Assembly (NCBI RefSeq): GCF_030519355.1
Contig: NZ_JAUMKC010000005.1
Coordinates: forward strand, 186,001-250,000
From: Mucilaginibacter sp. L3T2-6
GTDB lineage: Bacteria > Bacteroidota > Bacteroidia > Sphingobacteriales > Sphingobacteriaceae
DNA: 64,000 nt
Direction of reading: 5' to 3'
Shown here in pieces: positions 8,637 through 50,460 of this stretch. The notes beneath the pieces are model-generated. The model did no database searches, was not told the origin of the DNA, and was given only the letters and a program-made list of their open reading frames with translations. The position numbers and the translations under genes were made by a program. Each line of letters opens with the position of its first letter. Position 1 is the stretch's first letter.

Positions 8637-9021
8637 CGGTCAGCTTATCGTTACGCCTTTCCTGTGTTTGGCTTACCCGGCTTAGCTGCTCTACTTCGTC
8701 ATCCCAGTATGATTGCAGCTTGCTGTAAACCGATTCAACCGTATCTAAGCAGCTTAACGCAATATCAGCAGCATGGTCGCTGAAGTTGGACGATGTTCTG
8801 TCCATCGTTGTATTAAAGGCAATCCTGATGGTAATTACGGCCTTTACGCGCTGATCACCGTCCTGCGTGTCGCTGCATTTAACGTAAGCTATGGTGAACA
8901 GTGCGCAGGGGTATTGCACTGGCGGCATCTCCTGTTCCAGCTGCCCTAAATCCCAGGATACGTATTTGAGGTCGGCTACCTGCATCAGCAAGCCCCTTAT
9001 TTTTAAAAATAGCTTTTTCAT
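8590..9021 (-). CDS. Putative tail completion/terminator-type phage protein
   Basis: 143 residues, last gene of the minus-strand packaging block, overlapping the virion morphogenesis gene by 4 bases. The layout (short helix, strand-rich middle with FTIAYVKCSDTQDGDQRVKAVI, C-terminal strands) and position directly after a gpG/Phage_tail_S gene suggest a head-tail connector or tail terminator protein. I cannot assign a named family by reading, so the role is inferred from order. Confidence 0.5.
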   Translation of the reverse strand: MKKLFLKIRGLLMQVADLKYVSWDLGQLEQEMPPVQYPCALFTIAYVKCSDTQDGDQRVKAVITIRIAFNTTMDRTSSNFSDHAADIALSCLDTVESVYSKLQSYWDDEVEQLSRVSQTQERRNDKLTVIAMPFETEFDEVAS

Positions 9022-9551
9022 TTTTTAAACAGTGGTTTAATGCGTTGTATAAATCGTTTGCGTAACTCATAGCTGTAGCCCATAAACTGGCGGCGCGGCA
9101 TGGTGTAATCCATTTTGCGGGTGTGTTCGCGCACCTCCACCGTGCCGCTTTTGCTGCGTTTGCCGCGCTTGCTTACCTTGTATTTATTGCGGGTGTAAGC
9201 GCCCACACGCGCAATGGTGTTCACCGTTAGCCCCTCGTTATGGATGCGGGCGTACGGAACCTTACTGCTGCCTGCGCTCACGATCACTTTACCGGCTTCC
9301 GGCTCGTTGTAGCGTATGCTGGCGAACAGCAGGCCGTTTAAGTAAAGTATTTTATCCTTATTTCGCTTCTTTGCTGCCAGGTAGCTTTTGCTCAAAGGTT
9401 GCCACGGCACACCGTCATAGCTGCCGGAAAGGATGTTTTCTTTAAACAGCTCTACCGCAGTTTCGCCGATGATGGGCGGCACTTTGGTTTGTATCTCCAC
9501 CGGCAGCGCTGCAAAAAAACGGTGTATCTTATCTTTGTTGCTTAATGGCAT
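9018..9551 (-). CDS. Phage virion morphogenesis protein (Mu gpG / Phage_tail_S-like)
   Basis: 177 residues from the ATG at 9551. A frame open further upstream would add 40 residues encoded mostly by a dispersed repeat, so the shorter start is preferred. Family features: a helical N-terminus, the segment DGVPWQPLSKSYLAAKK, LYLNGLLFASIRY, a Y-A-R-I-H-N-E-G motif, and MPRRQFMGYS near the end, typical of the Phage_tail_S family. In Mu-like phages the product works in tail or head-tail completion. The 38-bp repeat ends 1 base upstream of the ATG. Confidence 0.75.
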   Translation of the reverse strand: MPLSNKDKIHRFFAALPVEIQTKVPPIIGETAVELFKENILSGSYDGVPWQPLSKSYLAAKKRNKDKILYLNGLLFASIRYNEPEAGKVIVSAGSSKVPYARIHNEGLTVNTIARVGAYTRNKYKVSKRGKRSKSGTVEVREHTRKMDYTMPRRQFMGYSYELRKRFIQRIKPLFKK

Positions 9552-9552
9552 C

Positions 9553-9590
9553 TTAGCCCCCTCTAAATCTCCCCCAGTAGGGGAGACTTT
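9553..9590. repeat. 38-bp dispersed repeat, copy 1 (upstream of gpG-like gene)
   Basis: Begins TTAGCCCCCTCTAAATC and ends GGGGAGACTTT with a CCCC..GGGG hairpin core. It is the same length as copies at 10966, 11158 and 50142. On the minus strand it reads KVSPTGGDLEGA in the frame of the following gene. Confidence 0.85.
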
Positions 9591-9722
9591 TAAAAAAAAT
9601 GTTTTATCTTTGTTATGTTTTAAAAGGTGGCGGCACTGTGAGCGCCTTCGGGATGATGGGGACAGGGCCACTTTTAAAATGCTTTTAAAATCCCAATAAA
9701 GCCGTGTCTTATGGTCGCGGCT

Positions 9723-12500
9723 TTATTTATTTCCCCCGTACACCAACAATCCCCGGCGCATCTGCCCGATACTGAACCTGTTCTCCGACAACGGGAACCA
9801 GGTATTTACCTGCGTTACATTATTCTTATCCACTTCGGCAATAACTACTATCGTCTCGTCGGTAAAATACTTGATGTACAGCAGCTGGTTCAGCGTGGAA
9901 GGATTGTACCTGTCGCCGCTCACCCAAACTTCATCCGGCTTTTGCAGGGCTTGCATCATGGCTTCCAGGTACGCCTCGCGGTACTGCTTTTTGCCGGTGG
10001 TGTGAAAGTCGAACACCTTTTTAGCCAGCTGCAAAGGCCGGTCGTTATAATCCTTCACGGTCGCCACGCCGTCTTTCACCTGTGCGTCGTAAAAGTCTGC
10101 TGCGGTGCCTTCGTATTTCGGCATGGCTTCGGTAGCGGCCTTTTTTGCCTGGCTGTAGCCGGGCAGGTCAAAGTCGGCGCTGCCCAGTTTGTTGAGCATC
10201 TTACTGGCTTTGCCCTCAAATTTGCGCAGGTACTGCTGGTTTGCGGTAAACACTTCGCCGGTGTCGGCGCGGTTAACGCCCCATCCCTGTGCGCTGTCGG
10301 TTTTGAACTCGGCGGTATCGAAATACGCATCGGCCTTTTCCTGCATTGCCTTCAGGTCGATGTCTTTCACCTCGTCCTTAGTGCGGGCCACCACGTAGCA
10401 CCGGCAGTTCCAGCCGTTTGGCGGGTACAGCTTTTTCCAGCGCGGGTCGTTTGCCGGTAGTATCAGTCCGTTGAGCGCAGCATGTGCAGGCCGTACGCGG
10501 TCGTCGCCAACGGTTTTGTATTCCCAGTACGGGAATAGCTGCACGTTTTTCATGAGCCTGGTATAGGTGGCTGACGCTTCGCCGGTAAAGTAGGCGGTAT
10601 TGTACTGCGTTTGCAGCTGCGCGCGGTTATACACCTTTGTTACCTCGCTGGCCTTTTTGTAGAACTCATCAAAGCTTTTGCTTTCGCGGTAAAGCTTATT
10701 CAATACCTGCGCCTCTTCCAGTGTTTTGGCACCGGCAAACCTGAACAGGTTCATTTCAAAGGCCGTCAGCAGCGCCGGGTCGTCCACCCCATAAGTAAAG
10801 CCCAAATCGGCCAGCTGCACCATTGGTTTACCTGTCCATCCGCCATGCAGGCCATCCAGCAGCACCTGCGCCGTAAATGCGAATACCGAAGCGTAGAAAT
10901 TGCTTTTGCCGCTGGCATCCCATACCGCGCGGATAAACGCATCGTTAGCCTTGTCCAAATCGGTTTTAGCCCCCTCTAAATCTCCCCCGGTTGGGGAGAC
11001 TTTTTCTGTTAGCTGTATAAATCGTGCATCCACAGCCGGGTTGCTACCACAGCATGCCGTCATCGTCGCCCCGGTCGCCTTCAGCGCCGGGGCTTTGTGA
11101 AAAAAACTTACAAAATCATCCACAAGTTTTGCCAGCTTGCCTTTGGGCTTTTTACCGTTAGCCCCCTCTAAATTTCCACCGGTTGGCGTGACTTTGTTGT
11201 TTTTGTCCGGTTTAGCACCGGGGGTAGGTGCGTTTTCTGCGGGGTTATTTGGCTGCCCCTGCGCCTGATTTTGTGCCTTTACAGCCAATAGAGCGGCTTT
11301 TTGGGCCTCGTAGTCGTCCGGTTTTTCAGCGCCATATTTTTTATAGAAGAAATCGTCGTCGATCGGGATGTCCAGATCGCTTACCATCGACTTATGCACC
11401 TGGTACGATTCTGTTTTAGATAGCTGATCTTCGTTAGCCTGTACGCTGAATAAACCGCCTTTGGTGTCGATGCCGTTCGCTTCCAGTATGCGGATAAACC
11501 GGCTATTCAAAATCTTCCGCACTTTGGTTATGAGCGATGCTTTGCGCTCGTCCTCTACCTCTTTATGCGTTTTGCTTTGGGCGTAGCCGCTCGTCGCGCT
11601 GCTGTCGGTCGATTCGGTGGCGTGCAGTATGGCTTTGCTGATCTCAGCGTTAAGGGCGTCCTTCAGCTTTTCCTGCATTGCGCCATCGGCATTGGCCCGG
11701 CTTTCCAGCAGTTCAATTTTACTGCCTGATGGATGCGTCACGCTGCTGCCAGGCCCCATGTTCTTTAGCTTGTTCTCGAATTGTGCCCGCTGCCCTTCGT
11801 CGAATCCGTCCCATTCCGCCGATACGATAGGCTGACCGAAGGTTTGCACGAACGCGGCCCAATCGCTAAAGTCGCCGTCCTTTAAAATGGCGTACTGCGC
11901 CACTGAAAGCAAACGGCCTAAGTCGGTAGGGTTTCCGGCTTCCAATACAAAGTATGGGTAAATCCCTTCGCGGATGTTGATGCCGGTATCTCCGTACAGT
12001 TCTGTGGTGATGATCCCCGTATTTGGGCGCATGTAGCGGCGGTCGCATTGAAACACGCTCATCGCCTTGTTGCCGCGAAAATCGGTAAAGAAATCGCATT
12101 CAACCATGCTGTAACCCCAATCCTCGGATTTGGCTATCTCGGTAAGCAGGTCGTCAAATCCGAGGCTGTCGATAATGTTTTTTACCGCGTCCACCTCGTT
12201 GCCGTCCTTATCCAGGAATACCCAGTTAGCATTTGTAACGGCATCGTACAGCTTGCCGGTAACAGCTATCACGTGACCGTCGAGCATCACATCTGCATAG
12301 AGGTCGTACAGCAGCACGCGGCGCGGTATCATGCTTTCGGCGGCACGATGGGCGGCACGCCATTTCTTTATGTCCTGGCTTTGCCGGTTAACAGGCCGGA
12401 CGTTAATATTTTGCAGTATGATGGGCTGCTGCGTTCCGTCTGCGGTTTTAGCCGCCAACGCCTGTCCAAAGCCGCCCACAGTAATTTTTTCAGTAGTCAT
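9723..12500 (-). CDS. Portal (DUF935) - MuF head morphogenesis fusion protein
   Basis: 925 residues from the ATG at 12500 (an upstream in-frame start would overlap the previous gene). Residues 1 to about 425 resemble DUF935 portal proteins (Mu gp29): IPRRVLLYDLYADVMLDGH and LGRLLSVAQYAILKDGDFSDW. Residues from about 515 on resemble phage head morphogenesis proteins (Mu gp30/SPP1 gp7): HAALNGLILPANDPRW and the cysteine motif PPNGWNCRCYV. These are normally two genes. The linker holds two in-frame copies of the 38-bp repeat (residues about 435-447 and 499-511). The portal forms the DNA entry ring; the MuF part is a minor head protein. A TATACCCCTATTGAT motif lies just upstream. Confidence 0.85.
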   Translation of the reverse strand: MTTEKITVGGFGQALAAKTADGTQQPIILQNINVRPVNRQSQDIKKWRAAHRAAESMIPRRVLLYDLYADVMLDGHVIAVTGKLYDAVTNANWVFLDKDGNEVDAVKNIIDSLGFDDLLTEIAKSEDWGYSMVECDFFTDFRGNKAMSVFQCDRRYMRPNTGIITTELYGDTGINIREGIYPYFVLEAGNPTDLGRLLSVAQYAILKDGDFSDWAAFVQTFGQPIVSAEWDGFDEGQRAQFENKLKNMGPGSSVTHPSGSKIELLESRANADGAMQEKLKDALNAEISKAILHATESTDSSATSGYAQSKTHKEVEDERKASLITKVRKILNSRFIRILEANGIDTKGGLFSVQANEDQLSKTESYQVHKSMVSDLDIPIDDDFFYKKYGAEKPDDYEAQKAALLAVKAQNQAQGQPNNPAENAPTPGAKPDKNNKVTPTGGNLEGANGKKPKGKLAKLVDDFVSFFHKAPALKATGATMTACCGSNPAVDARFIQLTEKVSPTGGDLEGAKTDLDKANDAFIRAVWDASGKSNFYASVFAFTAQVLLDGLHGGWTGKPMVQLADLGFTYGVDDPALLTAFEMNLFRFAGAKTLEEAQVLNKLYRESKSFDEFYKKASEVTKVYNRAQLQTQYNTAYFTGEASATYTRLMKNVQLFPYWEYKTVGDDRVRPAHAALNGLILPANDPRWKKLYPPNGWNCRCYVVARTKDEVKDIDLKAMQEKADAYFDTAEFKTDSAQGWGVNRADTGEVFTANQQYLRKFEGKASKMLNKLGSADFDLPGYSQAKKAATEAMPKYEGTAADFYDAQVKDGVATVKDYNDRPLQLAKKVFDFHTTGKKQYREAYLEAMMQALQKPDEVWVSGDRYNPSTLNQLLYIKYFTDETIVVIAEVDKNNVTQVNTWFPLSENRFSIGQMRRGLLVYGGNK
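10966..11003. repeat. 38-bp dispersed repeat, copy 2 (in frame in portal-MuF linker)
   Basis: Same 38-bp unit as at 9553, close to the consensus TTAGCCCCCTCTAAATC .. GGGGAGACTTT. On the coding strand it is translated KVSPTGGDLEGA without interrupting the frame. Confidence 0.9.
11158..11195. repeat. 38-bp dispersed repeat, diverged copy 3 (in frame)
   Basis: Same length and orientation as copy 2 but with several substitutions; translated KVTPTGGNLEGA. The core hairpin is weakened, which fits selection on the peptide or simple drift rather than on the palindrome. Confidence 0.85.
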
Positions 12501-12515
12501 ATCAATAGGGGTATA
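12501..12515 (-). promoter_or_regulatory. ACCCCTAT leader motif upstream of portal-MuF gene
   Basis: On the minus strand TATACCCCTATTGAT directly precedes the ATG. Close relatives precede the capsid (16221), tail tube (19498) and fibre (27609) genes. Confidence 0.45.
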
Positions 12516-12520
12516 TGTAA

Positions 12521-12943
12521 TTAACGATAGGTATCGCGCTTGCACTGGCTGCTGATCTCGATGGTGCCTGCCGGGTAATCCGTGTCGGTGACGGCACGCA
12601 GTTTCCAGCCGAGCGGCACATCAGTAGAGCCTTTTATAGCGGTGAGCGACTTAATAGCCTGCTGGTAACGTGACAGCGAATCCTCGTAATCGATGCCCGG
12701 ATTTGAGAGGCCGATAAAATGCCAAATCGCAATATCTTTCAGCCATATCAATAAAATGGGGTCGCGGTCGTCGCCGGTTTTGCCGAACAGATCATCTAAG
12801 TCGAACTTTACCAAAAGCTTTTCCACTTCTGATATTGCGCCGCTGATGGCTGTCGGGAGCAGCGTGTCGTCGCCGTTGCTGATCGCGTCTATCTTTTCCT
12901 GGTAAACGCGGGTGTTAAAATCTTCGGAGGTTAAAAATGCCAT
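12521..12943 (-). CDS. Mu gp36-like protein (DUF1320-type)
   Basis: 140 residues starting AFLTSEDFNTRVYQEKI, with the helical LPTAISGAISEVEKLL segment and a central ILLIWLKDIAIWHF helix. This is the pattern of the gp36/DUF1320 family found between terminase and head genes of Mu-like phages, thought to be a head-tail connector component. Its ATG overlaps the terminase stop by 1 base (TAATG). Confidence 0.65.
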   Translation of the reverse strand: MAFLTSEDFNTRVYQEKIDAISNGDDTLLPTAISGAISEVEKLLVKFDLDDLFGKTGDDRDPILLIWLKDIAIWHFIGLSNPGIDYEDSLSRYQQAIKSLTAIKGSTDVPLGWKLRAVTDTDYPAGTIEISSQCKRDTYR

Positions 12944-39010: not shown

Positions 39011-39038
39011 AAGCCGGACCCAGCAATGAATCCGGCTT
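39011..39038 (+). terminator. Bidirectional terminator between katA and glmS
   Basis: 8-bp stem AAGCCGGA / TCCGGCTT with a 12-base loop between convergent genes, flanked by A/T-rich sequence on both sides. Confidence 0.7.
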
Positions 39039-39045
39039 AATTCTT

Positions 39046-39090
39046 CACTATGGACTATGGTCTATGGACTATGGACTATCGTCTATGGAC
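39046..39090. repeat. GGACTAT heptamer repeat array (short)
   Basis: About six degenerate units such as ACTATGG and GTCTATG lie between the terminator and the glmS stop. The same unit forms the large array at 47604-47850. Confidence 0.75.
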
Positions 39091-44415: not shown

Positions 44416-44452
44416 ATGGGGAGTGGTTGAGTTGGCTAATAAATTAGCTGTT

Positions 44453-44567
44453 TGTTCCGTTCGCTGATTGTTCGAAACATTCCGTACAAGGTGAAACAGC
44501 AATGGGTACTTCGCTAAACGTGTTTCAGGTTGTTTCAGTGTGTTCGGCACAGGGAGAGAACGGAACA
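44453..44567. repeat. 115-bp TIR repeat, copy 1
   Basis: Begins TGTTCCGTTC and ends GAACGGAACA (perfect 10-bp terminal inverted repeats). An inner inverted pair TGAAACA / TGTTTCA is present. It differs from copy 2 at three positions. Confidence 0.9.
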
Positions 44568-44675
44568 GGATTAAATAGCCGGGACTGTTTTACCGTTTGT
44601 ATTGATTTCAATTTAATACTGTAAAGACCTGACCTCCCGCCCGAAATAGTTTCTCAATATAATTCCTGTATTGTT

Positions 44676-44790
44676 TGTTCCGTTCGCTGATTGTTCGAAA
44701 CATTGCGGACAAGGTGAAACAGCAATGGGTACTTCGCTAAACGTGTTTCAGGTTGTTTCAGCGTGTTCGGCACAGGGAGAGAACGGAACA
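44676..44790. repeat. 115-bp TIR repeat, copy 2
   Basis: Same length, ends and orientation as copy 1. It lies about 75 bases before the start of the KAP NTPase gene. Confidence 0.9.
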
Positions 44791-44863
44791 AGATTATGGC
44801 CGTTTTTGACTGTTTGCTTATATTAGACAGTTAATTGTTATATTAGATACCTAAACCGAGCAA

Positions 44864-46303
44864 ATGGAGCACATTGATATATCAGATCAACTTGAGCTTT
44901 TCAAAGAGCACATTGAAAATAGCAAAAACTTAAGAATAATTGTATCGGGGCCATTTGGAAGTGGCAAAACATACTTTCTGGACAAGTTTTTCGATAATAA
45001 TACGGCATATAATTTAATTAAGCTATATCCTGTTAACTACTCAGTTGCAAGCAATGAGGATATTTTTCAGCTGATTAAATTCGACGTTTTATTTGAGCTA
45101 CTGTGTAATCCTGGGGTTGAATTCAACAAAGAATATTTTGATAATTTTTTAACCGGTCAGCTGTTTGTTCAACAAAATGCATTTGACATAATAAAGCCGT
45201 TGATTGAAAAAATTCCTAAAATTGGAAAAGCTACAGCAACGGCTGCTGATACCTTGATTAAGTTTAGTGAAAAATATGAAGAATTTCATAAAGATGTACA
45301 AGTTGACGATTTTAAAAAAGCTACAGATTTTATAAAAAAAATAAAAAATGCTATAGCTTCGGTCGAAGAAGACTCAATCACAGAATTAATTAGAGCATCT
45401 ATACAATCCTTATCCGTAGAAAATAAAGAGACAGTTTTATTAATTGACGACCTTGACCGTATAGACCCGGAACACATTTTTAGGATTTTAAATGTTTTTT
45501 CATCTCATTTTGACAGCCATACAAACGGGAATAAATTCTTTTTCGACAAAATCATCCTGGTTTGCGACGTTGAAAACATCAGGACAATCTTTCATAACCG
45601 ATATGGTTCAAATATTGACTTTTCCGGATATATTGATAAGTTTTATTCGAGAAACATTTTCAGGTTCAATAATAATTTGAACATAGAGCAATTCATAGAA
45701 CGGAGTATTCAATTAATTGATGGAAATGATGTTTTTAACCATGCATTAGGCATACGTGAAGGCTCAAGTCAATACTTTTTTTTAGTTTGTATTTTAAAGG
45801 ATTTGCTAGCTCGCCATTATATCAACTTGCGAAAGCTACGCGGACTGGAAAAAATGCCGTTTGCCAAAGTAAATAGTATAAGTGCATCTTTACCCGGAGG
45901 AAACCGCCTTTCCAGAACCGAACATCCAATCATTGTAATTATCGAGTTATTAATAGACATTCTGGGGAGCAAAAAAGTATTATTAGAAGCCGTAAACGAT
46001 TTGCAAAACTTTAATGCGTCTGTTGAATCACAATCTAAGATATTCGCGGGCTTAATGCTCCCACTTTTAGGCATAAAGGAAAACAGGTTAGATTCCGGCC
46101 AGATATGTAGTTTTTTTAATCCCGAAAAAAACAAGCCTTTTAAGTATAGATTATGGGAAACTCGAGATAAAGTATTTTATGCAGATTTTAACCTGCAAGA
46201 TCACGGTTATGAACCAAGCCTGGATTTTGATACACATCAAATCAACGTATTAAATCTTTTTTTACAATTGATACAGCAACTTGATAAATATAAAGTGATT
46301 TAA
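44864..46303 (+). CDS. KAP family P-loop NTPase
   Basis: 479 residues. Walker A GPFGSGKT at 29-36 and Walker B LLIDDLDR at 192-199; the DDLDR hallmark identifies KAP NTPases. No membrane insertion of the classic KAP type is obvious. A central charged helical region (residues 120-170) follows the first domain part. KAP NTPases are often found in anti-phage defence loci and in plasmids; by itself this gene has no visible effector. It is AT-rich compared with its neighbours and bracketed by repeat copies, which suggests transfer. Confidence 0.8.
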   Translation: MEHIDISDQLELFKEHIENSKNLRIIVSGPFGSGKTYFLDKFFDNNTAYNLIKLYPVNYSVASNEDIFQLIKFDVLFELLCNPGVEFNKEYFDNFLTGQLFVQQNAFDIIKPLIEKIPKIGKATATAADTLIKFSEKYEEFHKDVQVDDFKKATDFIKKIKNAIASVEEDSITELIRASIQSLSVENKETVLLIDDLDRIDPEHIFRILNVFSSHFDSHTNGNKFFFDKIILVCDVENIRTIFHNRYGSNIDFSGYIDKFYSRNIFRFNNNLNIEQFIERSIQLIDGNDVFNHALGIREGSSQYFFLVCILKDLLARHYINLRKLRGLEKMPFAKVNSISASLPGGNRLSRTEHPIIVIIELLIDILGSKKVLLEAVNDLQNFNASVESQSKIFAGLMLPLLGIKENRLDSGQICSFFNPEKNKPFKYRLWETRDKVFYADFNLQDHGYEPSLDFDTHQINVLNLFLQLIQQLDKYKVI

Positions 46304-46374
46304 TTGCTGTTTATCGGTATCAGTATTAGATATACTAAGCCATCACCCATGATGAGACTGTAACCGTAGATATT

Positions 46375-46489
46375 TGTTCCGTTCGCTAATTGTGCGAAAC
46401 ATTCCGAACAGGGTGAAACAGCAATGGGTATTTCGCTAAAGTTGTTTCAGGTTGTTTCAGTGTGTCCGGCACAACAAGAGAACGGAACA
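46375..46489. repeat. 115-bp TIR repeat, copy 3
   Basis: Same length and terminal inverted repeats as copies 1 and 2, about a dozen substitutions. It lies between the KAP gene and the 3' end of the Toprim-like gene, 27 bases from its stop. Confidence 0.9.
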
Positions 46490-46515
46490 AGAGGCATCGT
46501 CTTAATCCTTTGTCA

Positions 46516-47577
46516 TCAAAATGGCGGTTCGGTGGGATAGCTGCCCTTTGGCGGGATGATGTAGTGTTTGGTTTCTTTCAGCACATCGGCAATGTCCAGC
46601 CCGTTAACCTTATCAAATGCGCTGGCTTTCTTTTCCAGCAGCGATGATACGCTGATCTGCATGCCCGGAAATTCCTTTTTAATGGCATCTGCTTTAATCT
46701 TCCAAAAATCATAAGCATTTACATCCGGAAACAGCATTACACTGCGCTTTTTAAGTATGCTTAACCTTTGCGGCGTAAGGTTGCTTAATCCGCCGGTTGC
46801 CAGCCACAAATAGTCGGGGCAGTAGTGCGATGCAATGATGGCAGTTTTCTCGCTTTCAACCACCGCCACCGATTTACCGGGGAACTGCGCCAGCAGGTGC
46901 TCACCGAAAAGGCATTGCTTCAATACAAAGTTTCTGGGCGGCAGCTGGGCAAGCTTAAATACATCAGTGGCCTTGTGTACGCAAAATAAACCTTCGCATT
47001 GGCATAGTTTACTCCTTTCCTTCAGCAGCAGGCTGTGCATCCAGGTTACATGGTTGTAGGGCTCTTTTACCCTTTTGCCGGTAACAGCATCATACAGCAT
47101 TACCTTGCCGGTACGTACCAGGTTGCGTGTATCGATATACCAGAAAACGGTTGCGCCGTCCCAATGGTCTGATGTGCCGATGCAATACATCTGCTTTAGC
47201 CGCTGACTTTCGTCGTACCCGAACTTTTTGTACAGGTAAGCGGTAAAGTTATCGGGGTCGCTTTCAATAGTGCGGGCAAGCCAGCGGGGGTCAATGGTAC
47301 AGCGTTCATCGGGTATGGGCGGGGGTGGTGCAGGCCTGTTTTTAAATGTTGAAATAAATGCCCTGCTGTTATTGCTGCCGTGCTGCATAAAATAGTCTTT
47401 TGGTTTATAGTGATAGCCGCAGTTAAGCTCCCGGTCGCAGCGGCCAACGTCTTCGTGCAGGTATTCGCCGGTTTCGGTATCAATATAACGGGTAAAAGTT
47501 TTGTTGCGGTGCTGGCACTCCGGGCATTTAAAACGGCTGTGCGGCCCGCTGTAGGGTTGTAGTGTGTAACGGTACAT
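46516..47577 (-). CDS. DUF6371-type zinc-finger/Toprim-like replication protein
   Basis: 353 residues. An N-terminal zinc finger (Cys18, Cys21, Cys47, Cys53) is followed by a basic and proline-rich linker (residues 80-90). The C-terminal half has VVESEKTAI (240-248) and LFPDVNAYD (282-290), which resemble the conserved Glu and Asp motifs of the Toprim domain in DnaG-type primases. This fits the DUF6371 family found with RepA-like helicases in Bacteroidota mobile elements. The helicase gene lies upstream on the same strand. Confidence 0.75.
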   Translation of the reverse strand: MYRYTLQPYSGPHSRFKCPECQHRNKTFTRYIDTETGEYLHEDVGRCDRELNCGYHYKPKDYFMQHGSNNSRAFISTFKNRPAPPPPIPDERCTIDPRWLARTIESDPDNFTAYLYKKFGYDESQRLKQMYCIGTSDHWDGATVFWYIDTRNLVRTGKVMLYDAVTGKRVKEPYNHVTWMHSLLLKERSKLCQCEGLFCVHKATDVFKLAQLPPRNFVLKQCLFGEHLLAQFPGKSVAVVESEKTAIIASHYCPDYLWLATGGLSNLTPQRLSILKKRSVMLFPDVNAYDFWKIKADAIKKEFPGMQISVSSLLEKKASAFDKVNGLDIADVLKETKHYIIPPKGSYPTEPPF

Positions 47578-47603
47578 GGGGGTGTGGGTTTGGTAGTTAG
47601 TCT

Positions 47604-47830
<227 letters not shown>

Positions 47831-47850
<20 letters not shown>

Positions 47851-48904
47851 ATTTTAACAGCCGGTTTACTTTACTGAACGATATGCCCAGTTGGTAGCCT
47901 ATCTGGCGCAGGGTGAGTCCTTGTTTGCGCAGTTCGGCTGCATCGGCGGCTAACTGATTGCGTTCGTTATCGTCCTTTGCGCGCAGGTGTTCGTTTTCGC
48001 TGCTGTAACCTTTAAAGGCATAATGTAAAAAGTTATCAGGCTTATGCAGGTCGAACACGCATACATTTTTATCGCCATAAACCTGTTCGGTATTGCGTTG
48101 CTTTATTTGTTTAATGTAGCGGGTATCGGGGCTGTTGTTGCTGTCGCCAATGGCAAACGAGCTGTCGCAAAAGTTCATCAGCATTTTACTTCCCTGCAAA
48201 TCATTACTGGTAATAGGCCTGCTTTTATCGCGCTTGGGGGTATGGGCCAGCGCCAGTATGCTCAGGTTATATTTATTTTTTAACGATTTTAGCTGCTTCA
48301 TTAATGGCAGGGCGTCTCTTGCCTGCTCGGTTTCGCTGCGCATGTAGGTAATGTTATCAATTATCAGTATGCGGGTATCATATTGTATAATGGCCTCTTC
48401 CAATGCCCGGTACAGGTAAACCTCCAGTTCGTTTTCGTTATAGCTGGCGGATGGGTCGGGGTTGAGGTCGGCACGGTAAAAGTGCTCTTCAAAACGGTAA
48501 TGCTTTTGCCAGTCGTGCGTGTAGCGGGCTTCCAGCTGCTTGTCATTCAGCTCAAAATCGCAGTAAAGCACCGGCTGTTTGTCGCCCTCGTAGGTAAACG
48601 GTTCAATGCTGGTGCCTGTACTGATGCTGTTACCGATTTGAATAGCCAGTACCGATTTACCCAGGTTACTGTCAGCAAATAAAATACAAAGCTCGCCTTC
48701 GTACCAAAACTTGCCGAAAAGCATTTGAGGGACCGGCCGGCTGGCGGCCTCTTCAATACAGTTATTAAATGTGCGGATACGCAGCATGCCATCGGTGCGG
48801 GGTTGCTGCATCTGGGTTTCAAGGCGGCTGCACTCTGCTTTAAGCTCCTCGGGGGCTACCATCAGCTTTCGCCAGTCGTAGGGTTGTTCGTTTAAGTTTT
48901 CCAT
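47831..48904 (-). CDS. RepA-like hexameric helicase / AAA ATPase
   Basis: 357 residues. Walker A ADSNLGKS (77-84), Walker B ILIIDN (179-184), and the ALAHTPKR segment place it with RepA/DnaB-like RecA-fold helicases that serve mobile-element replication. A C-terminal helix-turn-helix (LTLRQIGYQLGISFSKVNRLL) may bind DNA. The extreme C-terminus is encoded by the heptamer repeat array. Partner: the Toprim-like protein downstream. No recombinase or mobilisation gene is present nearby. Confidence 0.8.
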
Positions 48905-48925
48905 TTATTTTTTATTAAGATTTTT

Positions 48926-48975
48926 GCTTGTTTCATCCTGTTTCAGGTTGTCCGGAACGCAAAGCGAACGGAACA
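48926..48975. repeat. TIR repeat, internally deleted copy 4
   Basis: About 50 bases that match the 3' half of the 115-bp unit: TGTTTCA twice, GTCCGGAACGC, then GAACGGAACA. It lies just upstream of the helicase gene. Confidence 0.7.
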
Positions 48976-49105
48976 AGGCAGCGCGGGGAGCACTGTAAAT
49001 TTGATACCAGGAAATAAAGGGTTACCGGTTAATTACCCGTAGCCTATCAGACCTTACAAATGTAAAGAAATATCTGTAATAAAAAAGAAATGTATGTATT
49101 TTTTT
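48976..49105. other. Spacer between deleted repeat copies
   Basis: 130 bases of AT-rich sequence with no ORF of note. Together with copies 4 and 5 it makes up the non-coding upstream region of the helicase gene and could hold its promoter or an origin; I see no iterons. Confidence 0.4.
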
Positions 49106-49152
49106 TGTTCCGTTCTCTTTTTGTCCGGCACAAGGTGAAACAAGGCGGAACA
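49106..49152. repeat. TIR repeat, internally deleted copy 5
   Basis: About 47 bases starting TGTTCCGTTC and ending GGCGGAACA, with the inner TGAAACA. It marks the right edge of the island, 15 bases before the stop of the next host gene. Confidence 0.7.
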
Positions 49153-49167
49153 AAACGGGCTAAACTA

Positions 49168-50094: not shown

Positions 50095-50460
50095 ATGAGT
50101 ATTTTTAAAGGGGCAAATTTATTAATAATTATTACAGGACATTAGCCCCCTCTAAATCTTCCCCGGTTGGGGAGACTTTAGCTTAGGGATATATTAAGCC
50201 CTTCCTTCCGGGGAGGGTTTGGGTGGGGCTAAAACCAGCATATTTATATTTTTTAGACAGCTTCGGAAGAGATTAAAGGGATGGATTTTGCGCAATTTTC
50301 TGACTATCTGCAAAAAAGCAAAGCTAAATTGGTTGCCAAACCATAGGCAAGCTGCTTAACCATTAGATCACTAAACGCCGAAATATACTATTTTAAAACA
50401 GCCGCGTTAATAGTACTGTTATAGTTACCGAAGGTTAAACCTTCCAGATATTCGATCAAG
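50095..50460. other. 366-bp intergenic region with one dispersed repeat
   Basis: Apart from the 50142-50230 repeat I see no gene. The part after 50240 shows no promoter that I trust. Confidence 0.5.
50142..50230. repeat. 38-bp dispersed repeat, intergenic full-length copy 4
   Basis: The 38-bp unit at 50142-50179 is followed by a second, inverted arm ending GGTTTGGGTGGGGCT at 50230. The full element is about 89 bp with AGCCCC / GGGGCT ends. The three phage copies keep only the left arm. Confidence 0.8.

Follow-up and report, generated by a model that had tools for sequence, protein, structure and literature searches.

Short palindromic repeats in a Mucilaginibacter prophage and genome as probable solo ends of an element linked to a DUF559 nuclease

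A short palindromic repeat lies in and beside phage head genes of Mucilaginibacter sp. L3T2-6, in a stretch of 64,000 nucleotides (contig NZ_JAUMKC010000005.1, positions 186,001 to 250,000) that we call the window. The same repeat bounds an insert in the leuS gene of this genome, and the insert encodes a DUF559 nuclease. The repeats in the prophage belong to one sequence family with those at either end of the leuS element. We propose that each 36-bp repeat is a solitary end of a palindromic element linked to a nuclease, a reading to which we assign a probability of about 0.6. The repeat is best read as similar to the repetitive extragenic palindromic (REP) sequences, but partnered with a nuclease of the Vsr/EDxHD type in place of the REP-associated tyrosine transposase (RAYT). 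Our findings suggest that such nucleases help to spread a class of short bacterial repeats.

The leuS insert is found on contig C41, where two inverted repeat copies stand 525 bp apart within a single leuS open frame and enclose a DUF559 domain (PF04480, Pfam E=1.3e-29, 102.7 bits against a cut-off of 20.6). The frame is continuous throughout, and no intein domain is among the Pfam matches of the leuS product. We compared 15 leuS-nuclease loci (L009 and L031-L044), several of which are identical to loci of the genus genomes described below and thus are not independent. All 15 read (K/Q)VSP(T/A)GGDLEGA at the 3' repeat; the 5' end is a repeat of the window's type (type A) in 11, a related type B repeat in three and neither in one. 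A near-identical type B repeat, which forms the 5' end of the nuclease element in L040 (by DNA) and in L036 and L041 (by peptide), is also the second arm of an intergenic unit in the window, so that this A-B pair resembles a nuclease-free version of the element.

Across the genus, the same leuS position is empty (12-13 residues), holds the complete insert, or holds intermediate inserts: both arms without a nuclease (G047), fused half-arms (G050) or a scar (G066). The site was typed in 91 of 100 genomes, with classes set by motif (G064 and G073 being weak cases of repeat only, and the tenth nuclease genome, G038, being typed from the nuclease listing and its leuS locus). The nuclease is present in 10, the leuS-type repeat alone in 11, a second repeat type, characteristic of inserts in the methylmalonyl-CoA-mutase (MCM) gene, alone in eight, some other short insert in 12 and a different insert of 143 residues in one, and 49 sites are empty. 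At this site, several further observations were made. The 143-residue insert (L258, G057; about 143 residues) is in frame at the same position, has no Pfam match and is nuclease-like by eye only. Short in-frame SQES.. or NQES.. inserts (e.g. KSQESRDKNQEG) in G083, G026, G063, G056, G067, G082 and G029 are perhaps a translated simple repeat. In L038, four tandem in-frame repeat peptides follow the nuclease, the first being a longer variant.

The number of repeats in a genome co-varies with its own nuclease. The ten leuS-nuclease genomes have 10-82 leuS-type repeat matches each, with a median of 43.5; for the remaining 90, including nine untyped at the leuS site, the median is 5.5 (P=2.7e-5; this and the other association statistics ignore kinship among the genomes). 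The MCM-type repeat has a median of 10 in the 23 genomes with the MCM nuclease and of 2 in the remaining 77 (P=1.5e-6), where 23 is a minimum composed of 14 genomes identified by sequence and nine inferred from frame length. The leuS-type repeat showed no such relation to the MCM nuclease (P=0.36). As a control on the counts, the reversed 20-mer pattern used for the MCM type matched 3 of 100 genomes; the 18-mer pattern behind the leuS-type counts is nearly a mirror image of itself and its reversed control is uninformative. By leuS class, the leuS-type medians are 43.5 with the nuclease, 15 with the leuS-type repeat only, 5.5 with the MCM type only, 11 with another short insert, 47 with the 143-residue insert and 4 at empty sites (one-sided P: nuclease against empty 7e-6, repeat against empty 0.0015, nuclease against repeat 0.012). 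Further, the nuclease genome was richer in repeats than its nearest empty relative by similarity of leucyl-tRNA synthetase (LeuRS) in eight of nine pairs, some of which share one neighbour; the exception was G033. Nuclease-bearing rows are spread over several clades of a 29-row LeuRS tree, and therefore the association is not the peculiarity of one clade.

Free-standing DUF559 genes point in the same direction. Flanks rich in recurring 14-mers (over 10% of the 300 bp on each side made up of 14-mers found repeatedly in the same stretch) accompany 24 of 39 such genes, as compared to 23 of 170 control open reading frames (ORFs) of similar length from the same stretches (P=1.8e-11). This sample was the first 40 listed, with frames of about 120-240 residues, of which 39 were scored on both sides; it excludes three genes close to the end of a contig, one whose frame holds a stop and one from the L3T2-6 genome.

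The nuclease is not confined to leuS. PF04480 matches occur in 87 of the 100 genus genomes, and the best-scoring 30 loci are all in frame with a host gene: methylmalonyl-CoA mutase in 14, hisF in eight, a DEXH helicase in four, leuS in three and hisH in one. Having been picked by score, with some second matches per genome omitted, these loci give no estimate of frequency; many other matches are free-standing genes. The hisH insert is N-terminal, as are those in hisF, which are N-terminal fusions, and a Pfam check of one example each confirmed the mutase (with a MeaB domain), the helicase, His_biosynth and the glutamine amidotransferase. Phylum-wide, PF04480 was found in 222 of 395 genomes; of 30 loci drawn from these, 18 passed the motif filter, among them five at the metH cobalamin-binding region and three in hsdR (Pfam confirms one example of either), and two further loci, from Chitinophagaceae and Parafilimonas, bear a nuclease insert at two other places in metH. 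The inserts examined are bordered by peptides such as LTPALSKGEG and LSFGEDLGEA or SPLPLGEDLGEG, and the borders in leuS, mutase, helicase and hisF, read as DNA, are translated palindromic repeats. The MCM-type repeat (GCCTCACCTAAATCCTCTCC...) and the leuS type have a common scaffold, GCC..CTAAAT-hairpin-ACTTT. In L3T2-6 itself, a free-standing DUF559 gene (L028, C22:120910-122931) is set among eight places of a long two-arm palindromic repeat, which has no match elsewhere in that genome at up to three mismatches. A fourth PF04480 match, L030 (22 bits; frame of 1576 residues), has no copy of the window's repeat nearby.

The leuS nuclease, of about 120 residues and of the Vsr/EDxHD type, has an intact motif and fold. 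Sixty DUF559 domains share R11, T15, E18, L21, W22, R35-H38, D46, F47, E57, D59, G60, H63, D70, R73 and N89. They were picked by a motif (a basic pair and Q at 35-37, an E-x-D/E/N-G-like run at 57-60 and E..W near 18-22), and the shared residues independent of it are T15, H38, D46, H63, D70, R73 and N89, the last six being identical in 60 of 60. An AlphaFold model of the nuclease (predicted local distance difference test score, pLDDT, 85) matches the Neisseria endonuclease-like structure 3hrl and the catalytic domain of I-Bth0305I (3r3p), with a lower-ranked fold match to Vsr (1vsr); a profile search returned 3r3p at E=6e-7. A model of LeuRS with its insert (pLDDT 39.8) was too poor to place the insert on the enzyme. 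The ratio of nonsynonymous to synonymous divergence (pN/pS) of the leuS nucleases has a median of 0.18 (36 pairs), close to the 0.146 of codon-aligned LeuRS, for which synonymous sites are near saturation (median pS 0.75). Nuclease and LeuRS distances correlate with rho 0.31 (Mantel p 0.065), and the nuclease may have been acquired by vertical descent or by horizontal homing. A phage collection contained partial matches to it, at about 40% identity, in two records.

In the window, the repeat occurs four times (9553-9591, 10966-11004, 11158-11196 and 50142-50180; the units proper are given in Table 1), and the latter three copies are 95%, 82% and 90% identical to the first. A search with 19 bases of the repeat at up to three mismatches matched these four alone, and 100 dinucleotide-shuffled windows gave a mean of 0.01 matches. 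All four lie on the + strand; between 9 and 12.5 kb the genes run on the - strand. A hairpin is predicted for three of the four; the copy at 11160 is the most decayed, with no hairpin predicted on its - strand. The original prediction had described this dispersed repeat correctly as to its placement, two copies in the portal-MuF gene, one adjoining the start of a gpG-like gene and one between genes. The common orientation also stands, as does the shared frame of the two portal-MuF copies; the conserved unit is 36 bp (12 codons), and not 38, with the form AGCCCCCTCTAAATCTCCCC-loop-GGGGAGACTTT and a variable loop among 98 distinct copies compared. The first copy had been given the same peptide reading. 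It does adjoin the gpG-like start, but is intergenic, between the MuF stop and the gpG-like ATG (complement of 9549-9551), and would be translated only if an upstream GTG served as the gpG-like start. The intergenic unit at 50142 is likewise present, although it proved to be one arm of an A-B pair (predicted fold -54.2 kcal/mol, z -4.7) that lies inside a repeat of about 160 bp resembling a miniature inverted-repeat transposable element (MITE), the left end of which is degenerate.

The portal-MuF ORF (940 residues) reads KV(S/T)PTGG(D/N)LEGA in frame at two copies, both between the Portal_Mu and Phage_Mu_F domains. The shared reading is real, but the 36-bp consensus leaves a single stop-free frame per orientation (APSKSPPVGETL or AKVSPTGGDLEGA); the shared frame and the shared peptide follow from this, and the identity is therefore no evidence for the peptide itself. 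Three homologues with portal and MuF in a single ORF lack both peptides, and the alignment is gapped there. These are L187 from Mucilaginibacter genome G116 (42% identity) and the Porphyromonas phages L306 and L307 (37%), the two phages being those aligned, out of three retrieved, from 294 phage records with a tblastn match. On this alignment the MuF copies are therefore insertions. Selection at the peptide level was rejected on the grounds of the single open frame and the three homologues. Four other relatives in the genus (L188-L191) have portal and MuF as two separate ORFs, and a search of viral contigs returned one weak relative. The prophage copies are ordinary members of the repeat family; what is unusual is the nuclease partner and the residence in central genes.

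The L3T2-6 genome holds the repeat at 20 places (at up to two mismatches). It is in frame within genes at four of these (two in MuF, two in leuS), adjoins a start codon at two (L002, L006) and touches only the end of an open frame at two (L014, L017), and the remaining 12 have no open frame of at least 60 residues through them. Among 30 other genus genomes, sampled at one copy each, none had an open frame reaching 60 residues on both sides. The original prediction had likened the repeat to the Rickettsia palindromic elements (RPEs). This likeness holds in that the repeat is palindromic, dispersed and in frame in certain genes, but the sampled copies are mostly intergenic, and this placement, with the cognate nuclease, speaks against RPE behaviour as the main description.

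How might such an element work? The complete form would comprise two inverted repeats, each with a GCC..CC foot and a hairpin, around a single DUF559 gene. In L3T2-6 its complete copy would be the in-frame leuS insert, with solo repeats and A-B pairs dispersed mostly between genes. The length of 36 bp and the single open frame per orientation would permit in-frame insertions to survive, the two MuF copies and the leuS element being such survivors, and frame-breaking copies in genes would be purged. We envisage cleavage by the nuclease in or close to a repeat (palindromic or hairpin DNA) or at an unoccupied pair. Repair from an occupied copy would carry the nuclease over, as in homing; where repair stopped short, a lone repeat or an A-B pair would stay behind, and repair or strand exchange may copy repeats to new sites. 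The series from the complete element through G047 and G050 to G066 fits gain and loss at one leuS site. The weakest step is the insertion of a solo 36-bp unit at a non-homologous site such as MuF, which homing alone does not explain.

Several results weigh against our proposal. Eighteen genomes without the leuS nuclease carry at least 20 leuS-type repeats; a leuS repeat survives in G021, G050 and G089 and a fainter one in G064 and G066, whereas the leuS site is empty in others, e.g. G020 and G042. The MCM-type repeat is associated with the leuS nuclease at P=0.047 when genomes bearing both nucleases are kept, and at P=0.40 when these are left out of the positives; this repeat family tracks the MCM nuclease far better than the leuS nuclease. 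Repeat number is also weakly correlated with the number of Y1_Tnp (HUH transposase) matches, at rho 0.27 for the leuS type and 0.35 for the MCM type, and nuclease genomes have a median of 6 such matches, as compared to 3. Eight of the L3T2-6 copies, the window copy at 50144 among them, are two-arm units (A and inverted B) that travel inside the MITE-like repeat (about 160 bp, bounded by GAAACTGTCTAAAAA and TTTTTAGACAGCTTC), which therefore accounts for some of the copies counted in this genome. The repeats at two free-standing DUF559 genes of L3T2-6 are local (3 of 3 and 8 of 8 places, at up to three mismatches), which is a striking physical association, not dispersal. Finally, neither target-site duplication nor excision was found for the repeats.

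Alternatively, the repeats could have come first and spread by some other route, the DUF559 genes being homing genes that landed on repeat pairs and followed them. The fact that some leuS sites hold repeats and lack the nuclease, G047 even having both arms, accords with this, as do the resemblance of A-B pairs to an unoccupied form of A-nuclease-B, the differing repeat types at the one leuS site and the descent of DUF559 from a homing-endonuclease lineage. Yet the G066 scar, which stands beside a nuclease-bearing sister in the LeuRS tree, looks like loss of a nuclease, and repeat number falls from nuclease to remnant to empty sites as if the nuclease fed the copies. Neither observation is decisive, but we hold the order of repeats first to be rather unlikely. 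Movement of ordinary REP elements by a RAYT is improbable. The hairpin with its foot, the paired inverted copies and the mostly intergenic placement are all REP-like, and Y1_Tnp is present in 91 of the 100 genus genomes, with the positive correlations given above. However, none of ten Y1_Tnp loci examined (six from L3T2-6 and four others; 2.0-3.4 kb) holds any of three repeats at up to three mismatches, G023 has 36 repeats and no Y1_Tnp match, and the leuS effect persists after allowing for Y1_Tnp (permutation p 5e-5). The GTAG/CTAC motif stands on the foot side in just 4 of 98 copies, with 31 of 98 carrying it toward the 3' part. On these grounds we disfavour a RAYT origin.

An RPE-like MITE that tolerates coding regions and has no dedicated enzyme seems scarcely as probable as RAYT movement. 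Such an element would account for the in-frame portal-MuF insertions and the in-frame repeat remnants in leuS, but it accords poorly with the intergenic majority of sampled copies, with a unit of 36 bp where about 150 bp is usual and with the link to a nuclease. Least credible is an ancestral phage linker peptide kept for protein function, the outcome by which the original prediction was to fall. Two near-identical peptides within one MuF linker might be so explained, but the peptide is missing from the three aligned relatives, the opposite of what an ancestral linker would show; members of this DNA family also occur in leuS and in intergenic DNA, and the common peptide is already accounted for by the single open frame. 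A broader form of our own proposal, that a class of short palindromic repeats found throughout the Bacteroidota has DUF559 nucleases as its dedicated mobility enzymes, we advance only tentatively, at somewhat less than even odds.

Among known systems, the closest are the REP sequences and bacterial interspersed mosaic elements with their RAYTs (TnpA_REP; "REPtrons"). They share short hairpin repeats, an asymmetric foot, inverted pairing, a mostly intergenic placement and a single enzyme gene flanked by its own repeat type; RAYTs are the proposed multipliers of GTAG REPs. One report describes frame-keeping REP insertions in some tnpA_REP genes (PMC6006769). The Mucilaginibacter system differs in having a Vsr/EDxHD-type nuclease and not an HUH transposase, in lacking the GTAG foot, and in that the enzyme gene itself sits in frame in housekeeping genes with the repeats as its inverted ends. 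RPEs, described as about 150 bp long with nearly half of them in genes (PMC10969869), are also palindromic elements that lie in frame in unrelated genes and give related peptides; the repeat here is 36 bp, mostly intergenic in our samples and has a cognate nuclease. The EDxHD homing endonuclease I-Bth0305I and Vsr have the same nuclease fold with intact conserved residues, but in our case no intein domain is seen, the frame runs through and the insert is bounded by dispersed repeats. The CGTC-tagged REPs, which include RPE-4 and RPE-6, are presented as palindromic repeats without a known dedicated transposase (PMC3733652); a CGTC/GACG foot is found in only 4 of 98 copies of the Mucilaginibacter repeat. 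In Legionella pneumophila, DUF559 is part of a repeated transposase segment (three occurrences) that has been proposed as a recombination hotspot (PMC12308824). That segment is larger and has a transposase, and the accessible part of the paper mentions no palindromic repeat. Our literature search, mostly outside subscription papers, returned no paper linking DUF559 to palindromic repeats. We regard the system as REPtron-like logic with a different enzyme, and do not rate it categorically new because the association is what was observed, while mobilisation by the nuclease is what we infer from it.

The means by which bacterial genomes accumulate short palindromic repeats has long been debated. 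Mucilaginibacter provides natural replicates (nuclease, repeats only, empty) at one position of an essential gene, and two repeat-nuclease pairs discriminate between themselves, so that the question becomes a direct bench test. A selfish nuclease would persist by way of the reading frame of an enzyme that the cell cannot lose. If the broader form of our proposal is true, this is a mobile element without a counterpart among those known to us, in which hairpin repeats flank a nuclease of the homing type. Its unit length and stop-free frames would let it live, without splicing, in LeuRS, MetH, HisF, the mutase, the helicase and HsdR, while solo repeats were shed across the genome, prophages included. 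Other palindromic repeats for which no transposase is known may then owe their spread to an enzyme of this kind. As a practical matter, linkers such as SPTGGDLEGA or LSFGEDLGEA in a Bacteroidota protein should raise the suspicion of a repeat insertion.

Table 1. Repeats and neighbouring genes in the window (positions counted from the first letter of the window).
Feature	Position	Strand	Remarks
Repeat type A, copy 1	9555..9590	+	intergenic, 3 bases before the gpG-like start codon
Repeat type A, copy 2	10968..11003	+	KVSPTGGDLEGA, in frame (antisense) within portal-MuF
Repeat type A, copy 3	11160..11195	+	KVTPTGGNLEGA, in frame within portal-MuF
Repeat type A, copy 4	50144..50179	+	arm 1 of the intergenic two-arm unit
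Related repeat type B	50198..50230	-	inverted, arm 2 of the intergenic unit
Terminal inverted repeat at the right of the MITE-like repeat (~160 bp) that holds the A-B pair	50250..50264	+	
Portal-MuF gene	9723..12545	-	Portal_Mu, Phage_Mu_F, C-terminal PBECR2; holds copies 2 and 3
gpG-like gene (Phage_tail_S)	9018..9551	-	start codon adjoined by copy 1

Some lesser features of the window may be recorded. A search of it, leuS lying outside, returned no tRNA and no Rfam family, and PADLOC gave no match for two nucleases and MuF. The C-terminus of the portal-MuF fusion (9723-10100) is a PBECR2 nuclease-like domain (PF18810, 60 bits). Another dispersed family with inverted copies (TTGTTTCAGG...GAACGGAACAA) occupies 44448-49153 in pieces of 32-125 bp, and runs of heptamer-type tandem repeats (ACTATGG/TCTATCG) are found in both orientations at 39021-39088 and 47621-47850.

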